The translations under genes and the position numbers were made by a program. This document shows, piece after piece, positions 8,126 to 40,132 of a DNA stretch of 64,000 nt. The stretch is from Thermosipho affectus (GTDB lineage: Bacteria > Thermotogota > Thermotogae > Thermotogales > Fervidobacteriaceae), in the NCBI RefSeq assembly GCF_001990485.1, contig NZ_LBFC01000022.1, positions 124,001-188,000 of the forward strand, given 5' to 3'. The notes beneath the pieces are model-generated. The model saw nothing but the letters and a program-made list of their open reading frames with translations. It was not told where the DNA came from and did no database searches. Numbering within the stretch: the first letter of the stretch is position 1; the number at the start of each line of letters is the position of its first letter.

Positions 8126-8974
8126 ATGATTTTAAACGACGGTAAAGTTGTGAAGTTATCACTTTTAGTTGAAATAGTCCATCCCATTGCGCGAATTCCT
8201 GTTTTAAACAATGATGGAAAGCCATATTATTTTCCCGGAGTTGGCGGTATTTCATATAACTTTGGGCTTGGTGATAATGTTTTTGAAATTTTTGGAGATC
8301 ATGTTGAACCAGATGTTTCGACTAAAAATAAAGATAAAGTATTTAATGATACGTGTATGAATCTTGCGTGTATAGGGAATAAGGCTGTAGTAGTATCAGG
8401 TGAAGCAAAAGGGATGGAAGGGTACGTGATTGGAAAACATGGTGGAGTGGATAATATTTTGATATATTTTCCACAAAAAGATAAATTAGTCATTGGAGAT
8501 AAGATTCAGATATGTGGATTTGGCCAAGGATTAGAGATAATAGATTATCCAGACTTGAAAGTTTTTAATATTGATCCTAATTTATTGAAAAAAATATCAA
8601 TTATTGAAAAAAATGGGAAATTAATTTTTCCGGTTAAAGCTATTGTTCCTTCTTATCTTATGGGATCAGGTGTGGGGGCATCAAATCCAACTGGAACGGA
8701 TTATGATATAAATACACATGATATGGACGAGATAAAGCGCCTTGGATTGGACAAACTAAAAATAGGGGATTTTGTTGCGATAAAAGATCATTATAATGGT
8801 TATGGTGTAGGTGGTTTTAGAAAGGGAGCAATTTCAATAGGTGTAGTTGTACATTCTAATTGTATAAAAACAGGCCATGGGCCTGGAATTGTAGTAGTAA
8901 TGACTGCAAATGACAACAATAAACTTGATATTGAATTAAAAGATGAAGTGAACTTAAAAATGTTTTTAGAATAA
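8126..8974 (+). CDS. DUF4438 domain protein
   Basis: Soluble 282-residue protein that I recognise as the DUF4438 family known from Thermotogales and some Firmicutes. Features are a Gly-rich conserved N-terminal block (residues 40-50, PGVGGISYNFGLGDN), EAKGMEGYVIGKHGG near 95-108, and GASNPTGTDYDINTHD near 190-205. No signal peptide or membrane helix is present. The biochemical role is not known to me. It may be co-transcribed with the MATE gene. Its stop overlaps the convergent ABC ATPase gene by 9 bp and there is no terminator between them. Confidence 0.75.
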   Translation: MILNDGKVVKLSLLVEIVHPIARIPVLNNDGKPYYFPGVGGISYNFGLGDNVFEIFGDHVEPDVSTKNKDKVFNDTCMNLACIGNKAVVVSGEAKGMEGYVIGKHGGVDNILIYFPQKDKLVIGDKIQICGFGQGLEIIDYPDLKVFNIDPNLLKKISIIEKNGKLIFPVKAIVPSYLMGSGVGASNPTGTDYDINTHDMDEIKRLGLDKLKIGDFVAIKDHYNGYGVGGFRKGAISIGVVVHSNCIKTGHGPGIVVVMTANDNNKLDIELKDEVNLKMFLE

Positions 8975-9772
8975 TCTTATTTTTTCTGTTCCATTTAAAT
9001 ATCCAACTACTATTTCGTTTAATTTTGGATATCTACCGATGTTTTCATCTGTTTTTACTAGTAAGTTTTTTCCTACAAGACCAATTATCGTGCCGGTTTT
9101 TGTTTCGTATTGTGCTTCTATTATTCTGTGTTTTTCTTTTGATGCATCGATATAGTCGTGAAAAATTACTTCACCATCTTTTATTATTGCAATTTTATCT
9201 GCGTATTCTTCTATCTCATATATTTCATGTGATGAAACGATAATGTATTTTCCAAGATCGGCATATTCTCTCATAATTTCCATTATTTCAACCCTTATTG
9301 TAGGATCTAAATGTTGTGTTGGCTCATCTAACAATAATATTTCTGCATTTGTGGATACGGCTAAGGCAACTAAGAATAGTGTTTTTAACCCTTGTGAGTA
9401 TTTTGAAACATTTTGGGAAAGATCCAAATGGTATTTTATGGCCATTTTTTCAAATAAGTTATTATTCCACAATGGATAAATAGAACTCCATATTTTTTGA
9501 TAATCATACCCAGTAAAGTTTTGAAAAACACATCTGTCTTCTGGAACATAGGATAATTTGTATTTCATTTTTTCCGTTAATTCTTCATCTTCAAAGGTTA
9601 TAGTTCCATAATCTTTTCTTAGTACATGTGATATACAATTTAGGGTTGTTGTCTTGCCAACACCATTTGGACCAATTAGTGCCAAAACTTCTCCTTTCTC
9701 TAATTCAAAAGATATATTAGTCAAAACTGGTTTATTTTTGAAAGCCTTTTTTAATTGTTTAATTTTTAACAT
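8966..9772 (-). CDS. ABC transporter ATP-binding protein (YtrB/EcsA-like)
   Basis: ATPase subunit of an ABC exporter, about 268 residues. Walker A GPNGVGKTT is at about 35-43, the signature is YSQGLK in place of LSGGQ, Walker B is ILLLDEPTQHLD, and the switch His is in VSSHEI. The first in-frame ATG (9787) is inside the preceding gene; GGAGGTGAAAGTT before ATG 9772 sets the start. It is the last gene of the operon toastrack protein - GntR - membrane protein - ATPase, overlapping the membrane gene by 14 bp. The pairing with a YtrA-type regulator suggests envelope-stress or antibiotic-sensing export; the substrate is unknown. Confidence 0.88.
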   Translation of the reverse strand: MLKIKQLKKAFKNKPVLTNISFELEKGEVLALIGPNGVGKTTTLNCISHVLRKDYGTITFEDEELTEKMKYKLSYVPEDRCVFQNFTGYDYQKIWSSIYPLWNNNLFEKMAIKYHLDLSQNVSKYSQGLKTLFLVALAVSTNAEILLLDEPTQHLDPTIRVEIMEIMREYADLGKYIIVSSHEIYEIEEYADKIAIIKDGEVIFHDYIDASKEKHRIIEAQYETKTGTIIGLVGKNLLVKTDENIGRYPKLNEIVVGYLNGTEKIRLF

Positions 9773-10304
9773 AACTTTCACCTCCAACGTAAACTCTGTA
9801 GGCTAAAAATAAAAGTAAAGCGGAAAAAAGTGCAGAATATAGTATATTTCCTTGATAAGTAGGACTAATTAAAAGATATGGATTAAAATTTATATCTAGT
9901 TGAAGACTGCCGATTTTTGTGAGTATAGAGTCTACAATTAAAAATATTATGGTAATTGCAAGATTGTCTATACCAAATGATGCGGCAATGGTTGCTAGTG
10001 AAAAGATAAATGTTGAAAATATTAGAAAATAGATCGCTTGGGAGTGTTCGATAAGTATTGTGACAGAACAAATGAGTAACATTAAAAATGTGTATAGATA
10101 AAGGAATACTTCTTTTTTTGTAAATGGAAGATAATAGAAAAGTTTGTCTTTTTTTGATTTTATTTTTGAACCTAAAACGAGGTTTGAGAGGAAAAATACT
10201 GAAAAAATATTCGTGTAAGGTATAAATAAAAGCAAAAACCAAAAGAACCAACTTCCACTCTTTTCTTTTATTATTATTTCAAATAGAGCTTCAACCTTTT
10301 TCAT
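9759..10304 (-). CDS. Small membrane protein, likely ABC permease subunit
   Basis: About 181 residues with five or six hydrophobic segments (for example FFWFLLLFIPYTNIFSVFFL near the N-terminus and LIFSTFIFSLATIAASFGI in the middle). It lies between a GntR regulator and an ABC ATPase and overlaps both, so it is probably the membrane partner of the ATPase. It is short for a full ABC-2 permease and has no sequence motif that I can assign. Start ATG 10304 follows GAGGAGGTG. Its product KMKKVEALFEIIIKEKSG begins with a basic cytoplasmic segment, consistent with a type ABC-2 half-permease. Confidence 0.65.
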   Translation of the reverse strand: MKKVEALFEIIIKEKSGSWFFWFLLLFIPYTNIFSVFFLSNLVLGSKIKSKKDKLFYYLPFTKKEVFLYLYTFLMLLICSVTILIEHSQAIYFLIFSTFIFSLATIAASFGIDNLAITIIFLIVDSILTKIGSLQLDINFNPYLLISPTYQGNILYSALFSALLLFLAYRVYVGGESYVKN

Positions 10305-10653
10305 TTTTCCACACCTCCTCAAATATTATAAAAATAGTTTGTATATCTATGTTTAACTTTTTAAGTTTTTTGACCACTTTTTTAATTTCCTCTATGGTAT
10401 CATCGTTAATTTTAATATCTTTATTTATGAAGTATCCAATTCCTTGTTCTGAGGAAATAATTCCTTCAATTTTTAACTTTTCCAACGCTTTAAGTACGGT
10501 ATTTATATTAACTTGGAATATTTCTTTAAGTTCTCTAACGGGCGGCAGTTGATCTCCTGGTGTGAATTTTCCAAGAATAATTTCAGATTTTATCATGTTT
10601 ATTATCTGGATATATGCGGGGATACCACTATGTTTGTCTACTTGTTTTAACAT
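10291..10653 (-). CDS. GntR family regulator, YtrA-type
   Basis: Short 120-residue GntR repressor. The winged-helix domain occupies residues 1-75 (GIPAYIQIINMIKSEI, GDQLPPVRELKE, NTVLKALEKLKIEGII); the remaining ~45 residues are helical, as in the YtrA subgroup, which dimerises through a short C-terminus instead of a ligand domain. AGGAGTGATGAT precedes ATG 10653. It overlaps the membrane gene downstream by 14 bp and lies 4 bp after the toastrack gene, so it likely controls its own operon through the inverted repeat at 11667-11690. Confidence 0.88.
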   Translation of the reverse strand: MLKQVDKHSGIPAYIQIINMIKSEIILGKFTPGDQLPPVRELKEIFQVNINTVLKALEKLKIEGIISSEQGIGYFINKDIKINDDTIEEIKKVVKKLKKLNIDIQTIFIIFEEVWKNEKG

Positions 10654-10657
10654 ATCA

Positions 10658-11644
10658 TCACTCCTGTTCAAAAGTGAGCCTTGGGCCTTTGATATCTAAA
10701 ACCGCTTTTTTGTAATTTTTAATTTTTATGTTCCCCGATGTACAGAGTATTTTAATTTGTGCTGGATTGTTTGAAATATCAATGCTTCCTATAATGGTAG
10801 TTGCATTAATTCTTGTATAGGTATTTTTTCTGCCTAATTTTATATCTACATTCATTCCTGTTCCATCAATTCTTATTTCTTCATAGTTTATCTTTGAGTC
10901 TATATTTATACCTGTACCATTTAAATTAAAATTTTTTCCACTAATGTACCCGTCGATGTTTATACCTGTTCCATCTATCTCAAAAAATTTTGAATTTATT
11001 TTTCCATCTATATTGATACCAGTTCCATTTAGTTTTAAATTTTCACATTCTATGTCCAAAGAATTAAAACTTATGGCAGTGGCATTTATTTTTAGTTCAT
11101 TTAACGTGGCTTTTCCAGATAATTTAACATTATTTGCGTTTATTTTCAGATATTTTAGGCTTTCAGTACCTATTTTAAGATAAAAAGAGTAATTATTTCC
11201 TTTATTAGTACTTATTTTGATAGTTTTTCCTTGTTCTATCTTTAATTTACTAGAATAACTTATATTATTTCCATCTGTAAATTCCAATATTAAATTTGAA
11301 TTTCCCATATCTATTAATACTTCATCGGTAAAAAGTTCAGTATTGGTATCTGGATATATTATATTTTTTTGATAGTTTTGTAAACGTCTTTGTGAGAAAT
11401 TTTCAATAAAATTGTTTAAAAAAAAAGGTCTAAGTTTTATGGTAAGTGTGGTTGGCAAGGAAAAAATTAAAACTAGAATAATAAATGCTATAGCTCCCCT
11501 TTTTATGATTGTTGAAAACACGAATACTCCTGCAAGAAAAATTATTATTTTAATACTCCATAGTGGGATTATAACACTTAAAATTCCCAGTAATAGCATT
11601 ATCAATAGTTTAGAAAATATAGGGTATTTTTTGAGAAAATCCAT
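10658..11644 (-). CDS. LiaF-like membrane protein with toastrack beta-repeat domain
   Basis: 328 residues. Residues 12-68 hold two or three hydrophobic helices. Residues ~95-328 form an all-beta region with a regular 21-22 residue repeat; the pattern GTGINIDGKI or a close variant occurs four times between about residues 205 and 275, followed by a variant (NATTIIGSIDI). This resembles the DUF4097/toastrack solenoid of LiaF-, LiaG- and PspC-type envelope stress proteins. It is first in an operon with a YtrA-type regulator and ABC genes, which supports a sensor or accessory role at the membrane. No catalytic motif is seen. Start ATG 11644 follows GGAGGTGACATT. Confidence 0.65.
   Translation of the reverse strand: MDFLKKYPIFSKLLIMLLLGILSVIIPLWSIKIIIFLAGVFVFSTIIKRGAIAFIILVLIFSLPTTLTIKLRPFFLNNFIENFSQRRLQNYQKNIIYPDTNTELFTDEVLIDMGNSNLILEFTDGNNISYSSKLKIEQGKTIKISTNKGNNYSFYLKIGTESLKYLKINANNVKLSGKATLNELKINATAISFNSLDIECENLKLNGTGINIDGKINSKFFEIDGTGINIDGYISGKNFNLNGTGINIDSKINYEEIRIDGTGMNVDIKLGRKNTYTRINATTIIGSIDISNNPAQIKILCTSGNIKIKNYKKAVLDIKGPRLTFEQE
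10850..11050. repeat. Tandem degenerate repeat inside the toastrack gene
   Basis: The plus-strand motif ATACCTGTTCCAT (with variants ATTCCTGTTCCAT, ATACCTGTACCAT, ATACCAGTTCCAT) recurs about every 63-66 bp. This is the DNA form of the GTGINID protein repeat, so the array arose by in-frame duplication. Confidence 0.7.
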
Positions 11645-11666: not shown

Positions 11667-11690
11667 AGTGTTCTATATTAGTATAACACA
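11667..11690. promoter_or_regulatory. YtrA-like operator candidate
   Basis: Inverted repeat AGTGTT-N12-AACACA between the toastrack start codon and its likely promoter. On the minus strand it overlaps the proposed -10 region (TATAGA, 11672-11677), with TTGAAC at 11694-11699 as -35. It resembles the AGTGTA-N13-TACACT site that I recall for Bacillus YtrA. Confidence 0.5.
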
Positions 11691-11724
11691 TATGTTCAAA
11701 AAAACAAAAAAAATATTTAAAAAT

Positions 11725-13089
11725 TTAAAATCCCAATTTTGTTAAGTTTTTGGGGTCTATTTTTTCTAGAATGTTTTTTTTAGGTATATTGAATTTTTTT
11801 GAAAGTATTTCAATAGCTTTAAAGAAGTTATAATTTGCTTTTTTTATTGCATTTGCTACTTCTTCATAGCCAAATAAATTTATTAAAGGTGTTAAATTTG
11901 AAATGGATTTTTCCAAATTTTCTTTACATTTTTTCTCATTTGCCTCTATTTTAGAAATATATTTTGAAAGAGATATGCATGCATTTTTCAAAAGTTTTAA
12001 GGATTTTAATGTATAGTGAATAATTATTGGTGAAAATTGATTTAATTCTAGATTTCCTAATGAGGCAGCGTGGTTGATTAAACTATCATGTGAAAAGACA
12101 ATTAGAGATATTTGCATAACGTATTCTGGAATAACGGGGTTTATCTTTCCAGGCATTATAGAGCTTCCAATTTGTACCTTTGGAAGTATTAACTCACCAA
12201 TAGCGGTATTTGGTCCAGAACCAAGTAATCTTATATCGTTGGATATTTTATACAAGTTTACCGCAAGTGCTTTTAATAGTCCGTGTATTTCAGAGAAGAC
12301 GTCCATGTTTTGGGTAGTATCTATTAAATTTTCTGCTTTTGCAATTTTAACACAGCACGTTTCTCTCAAAGTATTTACTATTTTTAATATATATTCCTTT
12401 GGAGCACCAATACCAGTGCCAATAGCTGTTCCGCCTATATTTACATTTCTAATTCTTTCTTCTACTTTGTTTAGTCTCCATCTATCCCTTGCAAGTGCGT
12501 CGGCAAAGGCGCCAAATTCTTGTCCCAACATTATTGGAGGGCCATCCATTAATTGTGTTCTTCCAACTTTTCTAATACTATAATACTCTTTTTCTTTTTG
12601 CTGTATGATGTTTTGAAGGTTTATTATCTTATCTATTAATTCTCTTAAACGTACTATTATTGCTATTTTTCCTGCGGTTACGAATGTATCATTGGTTGAT
12701 TGATGCATATTTACATGTTCTAGGGGGTTTACAAATCCAAATTCTTTTCCCAAGATAATAGAAGCTTTATTTGCAATTACTTCATTAATATTCATATTAA
12801 CTGAGGTGCCTGCTCCGCCTGATAATGGATCTACAATTATATGTGGTAATAATTCTTCCCACTTGTCACATGCTTTCTCAATGGCATTTCCTATTTCTTT
12901 TTCAAGGTAACCAAGTTCTGTATTTAATTTTGCAGCGGCCTTTTTTATCATAAAATAGGCCCAAAGAAATTTTTTGTCAAATTTTTCATTTGTATTTGGA
13001 AATATTTGAGTTGCTCTTTTTGATGAGATGCCGTACAGTGCATTGTCTTCGATTTCGATTTCACCCAAGTAGTCTCTTTCTTTCCTCAT
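11725..13089 (-). CDS. aspA: Aspartate ammonia-lyase (aspartase/fumarase superfamily)
   Basis: 454-residue lyase of the aspartase/class II fumarase superfamily, which interconverts aspartate with fumarate and ammonia, or malate with fumarate. The superfamily signature GSSIMPGKINP is near residue 305, with GTSVNMNINEVIANKA near 95 and HVNMHQSTNDT near 125. The N-terminus RDYLGEIEIEDNALYGISSKRA fits either enzyme. I prefer aspartase because it lies 4 bp after hydF, and aspA-like genes commonly accompany hydrogenase maturation genes. It is slightly shorter than typical (about 465). Start ATG 13089 follows GAGGTG. Confidence 0.8.
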   Translation of the reverse strand: MRKERDYLGEIEIEDNALYGISSKRATQIFPNTNEKFDKKFLWAYFMIKKAAAKLNTELGYLEKEIGNAIEKACDKWEELLPHIIVDPLSGGAGTSVNMNINEVIANKASIILGKEFGFVNPLEHVNMHQSTNDTFVTAGKIAIIVRLRELIDKIINLQNIIQQKEKEYYSIRKVGRTQLMDGPPIMLGQEFGAFADALARDRWRLNKVEERIRNVNIGGTAIGTGIGAPKEYILKIVNTLRETCCVKIAKAENLIDTTQNMDVFSEIHGLLKALAVNLYKISNDIRLLGSGPNTAIGELILPKVQIGSSIMPGKINPVIPEYVMQISLIVFSHDSLINHAASLGNLELNQFSPIIIHYTLKSLKLLKNACISLSKYISKIEANEKKCKENLEKSISNLTPLINLFGYEEVANAIKKANYNFFKAIEILSKKFNIPKKNILEKIDPKNLTKLGF

Positions 13090-13093
13090 TTTT

Positions 13094-14284
13094 TCACCTC
13101 ATTAATGGCTTAATAGCTCTATCAAGCACACCGTGTAAATAAGATATTATAACTCCGTAATTTGTCATGGGAATGTCCAAACGCTTGAACATACGAACCC
13201 TTCTCATCATGTTATTTCTGTTCATTACACAACCACCACAGTGAATAACCAATTTTGCGTCTTCAATTTCAGAAAGTTCTGGAAGGTCCACCCCTGCCCA
13301 TACTTTAAAGTTTAATGCTGCTCCTGTGTGATTGGTTAACCACCTTGGAATTTTAACTCGTCCTATGTCTTCAGTAAGTGGCCTGTGGGTACAACCTTCC
13401 ATTATGATAACGGTATCTCCGTCTGATAGATTTTCAATTGCTTTTACGCTTTCAACAAAATATTCTAAATCACCTCTATACCTTGATTCAAGTATGGAAA
13501 AAGTAGTTAGATCTACATCATCAGGCACATCTGAAACGACTTTCATTACACTTTGAGAATCTGTAACAACTAGTCTAGGTTTTATTCCTATATTTTCAAT
13601 TGCATATCTTAATTCCCTTTCTTTTACCACTAATACTAACGATTCTCTGTCTAACCCCTCTCTTATTGCATGTACTTGTGGCATTATTAACCTACCTTTT
13701 GGTGCACCTAAATCGATTGGGACAACTAATATTACTAGATCTCCACCGTCTATTAAATCCGAAAGATAAGGTATTTCATCATCTTTTGGTAATAGTGAAT
13801 TTATTTTTTCTCCAATGTCCTCAAAGCCACTTTTTTTTAAAGCGGAAACCTTTATAATTGGGACATTATACTTTTTGTATGCTTTTTCTATTTTTTCTGG
13901 GTCTATTTTGTCTATTTTATTTATTACTATTAAATATGGAATTTCAAGTTCTTTAAAGAGGTTTATAATCTGTTCTTCAAAATCACCAGGTTTATTATCA
14001 ACTATTAAGATTCCGCAATCTGCTCTATACAAAGTTTTTTTTGCCTTTTTTATACGTTTTATTCCTAATTCTCCAATGTCATCAAGACCAGGAGTATCAA
14101 TTAGTGTAACAGGTCCAACAGGTGAAAGCTCCATACTTTTGAATACGGGATCTGTAGTAGTTCCTGCCACATTACTTACTATTGATACTTCTTGGCCAAT
14201 TAGTGCGTTCATAAACGAAGATTTTCCAACATTTCTCTTTCCGGTAATTGCAATATATTTTCTGAATCCTCCACTTGCTATCAT
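13094..14284 (-). CDS. hydF: [FeFe]-hydrogenase maturation GTPase HydF
   Basis: Scaffold GTPase that carries the precursor of the 2Fe subcluster and delivers it to apo-[FeFe]-hydrogenase. 396 residues in three parts: a Ras-like GTPase domain (Walker [10 protein letters not shown] at about 15-23, DTPG, NKID), a dimerisation region, and a C-terminal cluster-binding domain with GCTHRP and HCGGCVMN supplying the three cysteines that bind a 4Fe-4S cluster. Start ATG 14284 follows AGAGGTG. hydE and hydG are not in this window. It is first in an operon with the aspartase-like gene, under a promoter at 14318-14346. Confidence 0.95.
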
Positions 14285-40041: not shown

Positions 40042-40132
40042 TGGCGGAGGCGGTGGGACTCGAACCCACACGGGGGTGTAACCCCCACCGGTTTTCAAGA
40101 CCGGCCCCTTAGCCAATTCGGAACACGCCTCC
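40042..40132 (-). tRNA. tRNA-Ser (anticodon UGA)
   Basis: 91-nt class II tRNA with long variable arm. Minus strand acceptor GGAGGCG pairs with CGCCTCC, discriminator G, CCA encoded. The anticodon loop CTTGAAA reads TGA, decoding UCA/UCG. T arm GTGGGTTCGAGTCCCAC is intact. Confidence 0.95.

Follow-up and report, generated by a model that had tools for sequence, protein, structure and literature searches.

Organization of the four-gene unit

Four minus-strand genes in the ORF list, running from 11644 to 8966 of the 64,000-nucleotide stretch of DNA analysed here (the window), make up one unit. An earlier note, made from the letters alone, had proposed a four-gene cassette at this place; the cassette is real, with minus-strand ORFs throughout and a conserved gene order. 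The genes and the features upstream of them are:

10658..11644, minus strand: toastrack protein, 328 aa (ORF, alignment, AlphaFold model, fold matches and charge bias)
10291..10653, minus strand: YtrA-type GntR regulator, 120 aa, ATG start (Pfam, alignment and small YtrA-like structures)
9759..10304, minus strand: small ABC-2 permease, 181 aa, about six TM helices (ABC2_membrane_5 matches of relatives, model and fold matches)
8966..9772, minus strand: ABC ATPase, 268 aa (Pfam, NCBIfam and motifs read in the sequence)
11668..11689, minus strand: palindrome GTGTTATACTAATATAGAACAC, 22 bp, likely GntR operator (conservation and position)
11680..11685, minus strand: probable -10 box TATACT within the palindrome (read in the sequence; comparative)
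11702..11707, minus strand: possible weak -35 box TTGTTT, with a 16-nt spacer (read in the sequence)

Start codons were picked by eye, as an ATG with a Shine-Dalgarno-like sequence ahead, and the listed TTG start of the GntR gene at 10671 is probably too early. The genes had been described as tightly overlapping, which holds for three of the four, with overlaps of 14 bp at both the GntR/permease and permease/ATPase junctions, but not for the toastrack and GntR genes, which nearly touch across a gap of 4 bp. At its 3' end the unit is convergent with a DUF4438 gene; its upstream neighbours, on the same strand, are a Lyase_1 gene and hydF. The lyase gene, of the fumarate/aspartase type, adjoins hydF (window 11725-14284) in a layout also seen in the close relatives L034-L036, L038 and L042. 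Elsewhere in the window, a selenocysteine tRNA match at 40046-40132 (54.6 bits, above the gathering score) suggests selenoprotein synthesis.

The regulator matched the Pfam GntR model at 2.5e-16. Its GntR domain is followed by about 45 residues that form a short helical C-terminal part, and this combination of a GntR winged helix with a short helical C-terminal part is the feature of the YtrA subfamily. The structures matched (3neu, 4ham, 3by6 and 4r1h) are likewise small and YtrA-like, in agreement with the earlier identification of a YtrA-type regulator. The ATPase matched ABC_tran at 8.8e-26, and Walker A (GPNGVGKTT), signature-like (YSQGL), Walker B (LLLDEP) and H-loop (SSH) motifs could be read in its sequence.

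As single sequences, neither the toastrack protein nor the permease gave a credible match in Pfam or NCBIfam, and a profile search of PDB sequences returned nothing usable for either, and their identities were assigned through relatives and structure models. ABC2_membrane_5 was matched by 11 of 33 permease relatives, and the permease model has a mean pLDDT of 92.1. Fold scores for the permease (Z about 10-13) lie in the range that helical bundles reach through arrangement alone, so that the family assignment leans on the Pfam matches of its relatives. A six-TM ABC-2 permease thus adjoins an ABC ATPase, the arrangement of the small ABC exporter that had been suggested.

Predicted fold and membrane side of the toastrack protein

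The AlphaFold model of the toastrack protein (mean pLDDT 89.2, solenoid mostly above 95) consists of three TM helices (about residues 8-66), a helical linker and a beta-solenoid (about residues 95-328). Its top Foldseek match was 4opw_A (E 1.3e-4, probability 1.00, TM 0.34/0.42), a structure that Ravi et al. 2024 (PMC11237479) name as a toastrack example, followed by further entries annotated as putative adhesins. Over the solenoid the model gave VIA Z scores of 15.1 to 4opw, 16.4 to 3lyc and 8.9 to 4qrk. Since unrelated beta-solenoids also reach Z 12-15 with this model, the toastrack call rests on the Foldseek and VIA lists taken together with weak matches among 37 relatives, two of which match DUF4097 (best 1.5e-3) and two DUF2807 (best 1.2e-4); the window protein as a single sequence matched none of the Pfam models DUF4097, DUF2807 and DUF2154. 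Structure prediction therefore agrees with the beta-solenoid of toastrack type that had been read from the sequence, the model being confident and its best Foldseek matches being toastracks.

The further label LiaF-like was too specific. We rejected membership of the LiaF family, as both the alignment and the model show three TM helices in place of the four-TM LiaI-LiaF-TM domain, no LiaF domain was matched in Pfam, and the operon has no kinase.

Lysine and arginine are crowded at the N-terminus (0.23 per residue) and in loop 2, between TM2 and TM3 (0.29), and are thin in loop 1 (0.11) and above all after TM3 (0.05). This distribution predicts an N-in/C-out orientation, which would place the solenoid outside the membrane. 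The charge bias favoured C-out in 33 of 37 toastrack proteins and was tied in the other 4; a nearly invariant lysine in loop 1 counts against the prediction. In the passages of Ravi et al. 2024 (PMC11237479) on which we draw, toastracks are argued to be intracellular, and by that published proposal the solenoid would be a cytoplasmic, sub-membrane platform for docking proteins. A platform of this kind could coexist with some of the other readings discussed below. For the present protein we regard it as improbable given the three TM helices and a positive-inside bias that points to C-out in 33 of the 37 proteins, and the solenoid side in this family appears to differ from the cytoplasmic proposal.

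Conservation, likely operator and partial losses

Of 101 Thermotogota genomes, 57 gave a toastrack match in a single-sequence search; with family profiles the count was 69 for the toastrack protein and 66 for the permease. We read 77 loci that have a permease relative, from many Thermotogota families and from thermophilic Clostridia. The order toastrack-GntR-permease-ATPase occurs at 57 of these, and at another 5 that carry an additional toastrack or have the permease ORF split (62 of 77 in total), so the order is conserved well beyond one species, as the earlier note had asked to see checked; GntR comes last at 3 of the 77. In the first 40 Thermotogota loci read, the order was conserved in all but one, where GntR was last. 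Identity to the window proteins falls to about 19-30% for the toastrack protein and permease and to 50% for GntR, so the conserved order is not due to recent common ancestry, and the flanking genes are common to near relatives only. The toastrack gene is duplicated at four loci (L054, L055, L057, L060), the additional copy following the ATPase or standing in tandem upstream with an operator copy of its own.

Upstream of the toastrack genes we found the consensus TGTT[A/C]TA-N6-TA[T/G]AACA, usually inside GTGTT...AACAC. Of 53 toastrack genes, 46 have the core ahead of them, where dinucleotide shuffles gave an expectation of 0; it usually lies 19-40 bp from the start codon and overlaps the -10 hexamer. 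In 20 of 36 loci a TTGACA-like box lies a further 16-18 nt upstream, versus 5 at control spacings, and the relatives carry better TTGACA-like matches than the TTGTTT of the window. The pattern had been derived from these same loci, so a whole-genome scan served as the independent test. The exact pattern occurred in 46 of 101 genomes, about once in each and nearly always at the toastrack operon, while a reversed control pattern in the same scan was nearly empty; in the genome of the window the only perfect match is 11668-11689. The site has the form expected for YtrA regulators, a long palindrome with GT/AC far from its centre (GTG-N16-CAC) at the regulator's own ABC operon, and GTG-N16-CAC is also the site geometry quoted for a YtrA-like regulator of Xanthomonas. 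The 22-bp palindrome over the promoter is likely the GntR operator.

We do not claim a wider regulon, as extra operator matches barely exceed those of the control pattern, and for several the nearest start codon is a long way off. In single genomes such matches were found near VanZ, two outer-membrane efflux genes, a BcrA-like ABC ATPase, a glycosyltransferase and a hydrolase. At L111:3856-5574, in one incomplete genome, a perfect operator stands about 33 bp before a BcrA-like ABC ATPase gene and a membrane gene; it could be chance. Operator copies also stand ahead of truncated or decayed toastrack pieces (L116:539-748 and L107:5163-5482).

Parts of the unit are absent in two genera. Two of the three genomes read in one genus (G067 and G089, loci L202 and L203) have an operon of toastrack, permease and ATPase that lacks GntR, which the third (G059) has. 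A genome search placed GntR in the operon of G094 as well. Genomes without GntR in the operon carry other YtrA-like regulators elsewhere, which might act on these operons in trans. In seven genomes of another genus (loci L193, L195, L196, L198, L200, L211 and L214), a stub of 74-76 aa with three TM helices lies beside a divergent permease and ATPase; the stub aligns only to the toastrack anchor, and solenoid, GntR and operator are all absent. In the stub loci read, a STAS-domain gene often lies just upstream. Solenoid and GntR are not strictly lost together, since the solenoid persists without GntR in two genomes.

What persists most is the set of anchor, permease and ATPase, and this leads us to lean toward the toastrack protein as a partner of the pump, although a sensing role is also compatible. 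Loci L202 and L203 and the seven stub genomes count for such a partner, and the YtrA-like regulators elsewhere in the GntR-less genomes count against our favoured reading. If the toastrack were mainly a sensor, its solenoid would detect envelope damage and signal through the TM helices to GntR, which would then free the operator. The adjacency of the toastrack and GntR genes at most loci would fit this, as would a stub genus that lacks solenoid, GntR and operator together, consistent with a shared signalling role, and the ties of toastracks to envelope stress in Lia/Psp systems. We nevertheless consider it doubtful, for a full toastrack is kept in two genomes without GntR in the operon, the predicted topology puts solenoid and GntR on opposite sides of the membrane, and the operon has no known cytoplasmic relay. 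The toastrack protein looks like a transporter partner and is perhaps also a sensor.

In a scan of named genomes the operon was found in Thermosipho, Fervidobacterium, Pseudothermotoga, Petrotoga-like, Mesoaciditoga-like and Athalassotoga records, in the thermophilic Clostridia Carboxydothermus, Caldanaerobacter, Thermoanaerobacter, Thermoanaerobacterium and Caldicoprobacter, and in one Atribacteria bin. In a tree of permease plus ATPase, the Clostridial copies group in one clade, with Thermosipho as the nearest rows (support 99/97), which suggests a single transfer. The source was probably Thermotogota, a direction we infer from a tree whose root is drawn at the midpoint only.

This distribution bears on whether the unit could instead be a housekeeping transporter for a lipid or envelope precursor, with GntR only tuning its level, and not an exporter for stress or drugs. 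Many families have one copy per genome, and GntR is dispensable in some lineages, as such a role would allow. Many complete genomes of the phylum lack the operon, however, including most of one family, and transfer to Clostridia would fit a niche-adaptive module; moreover, Pmt is one of the small YtrA-type exporters that deal with membrane-active peptides. On this evidence a housekeeping role seems unlikely.

Proposed working and comparison with known systems

Gene order, fold model, operator conservation, predicted topology and co-occurrence were computed here. From these we favour, over the sensor and housekeeping roles and with a probability of about 0.5, a self-repressed ABC-2 exporter whose toastrack subunit is anchored in the membrane and lies outside the cytoplasm. 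To judge from the position and conservation of the palindrome, a GntR dimer would bind it over the -10 box and silence the single promoter of all four genes. By its family, the pump would be built from two permeases and two ATPases. The toastrack protein would stand beside it through its three TM helices, with the solenoid outside, where it may bind or shield an envelope-associated and probably amphipathic substrate. By analogy with PmtR and phenol-soluble modulins, the inducer would most likely act on GntR itself. More tentatively, the unit may be an example of a single-membrane ABC-2 exporter with a beta-solenoid subunit of its own outside the cell that binds the substrate and perhaps reports on it; if so, the role of toastracks would extend beyond that of cytoplasmic scaffolds to that of transporter ectodomains outside the cell.

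The earlier note had considered the system undescribed, a view that falls to Ravi et al. 2024 (PMC11237479), the only literature we found on this combination. As far as the part of that article drawn on here goes, operons combining a membrane-anchored toastrack, an ABC ATPase, a permease and GntR are described (e.g. AJI31452.1), and their GntR has a distinct helical C-terminal part, as here. Their operon differs in having a DUF2884 lipoprotein, which a Pfam scan did not find among the four window genes or the immediate neighbours scanned; Thermotogota are not named in its main text, and the passages drawn on here mention no operator. Our additions are the likely operator, the predicted membrane side of the solenoid, the pattern of partial loss and the suggested transfer to Clostridia. 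Toastracks are widespread in bacteria, with their membrane side and task unsettled, and this operon offers a small setting for one: one repressor, one site, one minimal pump and no kinase. The likely repressor site and the predicted outward-facing solenoid make its working directly testable, and the lineages with and without GntR or solenoid serve as natural deletions.

Thermotogae YtrA regulators, 14 in the set, were analysed by Suvorova et al. 2015 (PMC4494728), and the operator of the window may already be in their data or supplement. In the sections of that article considered here, YtrA regulons mostly consist of one ABC operon with one site; like them, the present operon appears as a single autoregulated ABC operon with one long palindrome. 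A toastrack, present here, is not mentioned with the regulons in those sections.

In the PmtR-PmtABCD system of Staphylococcus aureus (PMC5080381), exported peptides release a YtrA-type repressor that, like the GntR described here, overlaps an ABC exporter operon; its site is at the promoter, where the likely GntR site also lies. PmtA was the top NCBIfam model for the window ATPase, and PmtCD were among the fold matches of the permease. Pmt has two ATPases and two permeases and no toastrack, whereas the present operon has one gene of each and a toastrack. We rejected membership of the Pmt family because the scores fall far short of the NCBIfam cut-offs, at 138.9 of 350 bits for PmtA and 41.6 of 200 bits for PmtR.

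LiaF of the LiaFSR system is, like the window protein, a membrane-anchored toastrack. It differs in having the four-TM LiaI-LiaF-TM domain and in acting together with a kinase and a response regulator, both absent from the window operon; Pfam found no two-component system or histidine kinase among the four genes, just as had been remarked from the sequence. A second toastrack context does occur in Thermotogota at L197:769-4389 and, in similar form, at L194, L199, L207, L208, L209 and L210. There a short-anchored toastrack gene is grouped with genes for a small Gly-rich, secreted-looking protein, another small protein, a LytS-type histidine kinase (His_kinase, 2.7e-25) and a response regulator of the LytTR type (1.7e-25); an ABC gene often comes next.
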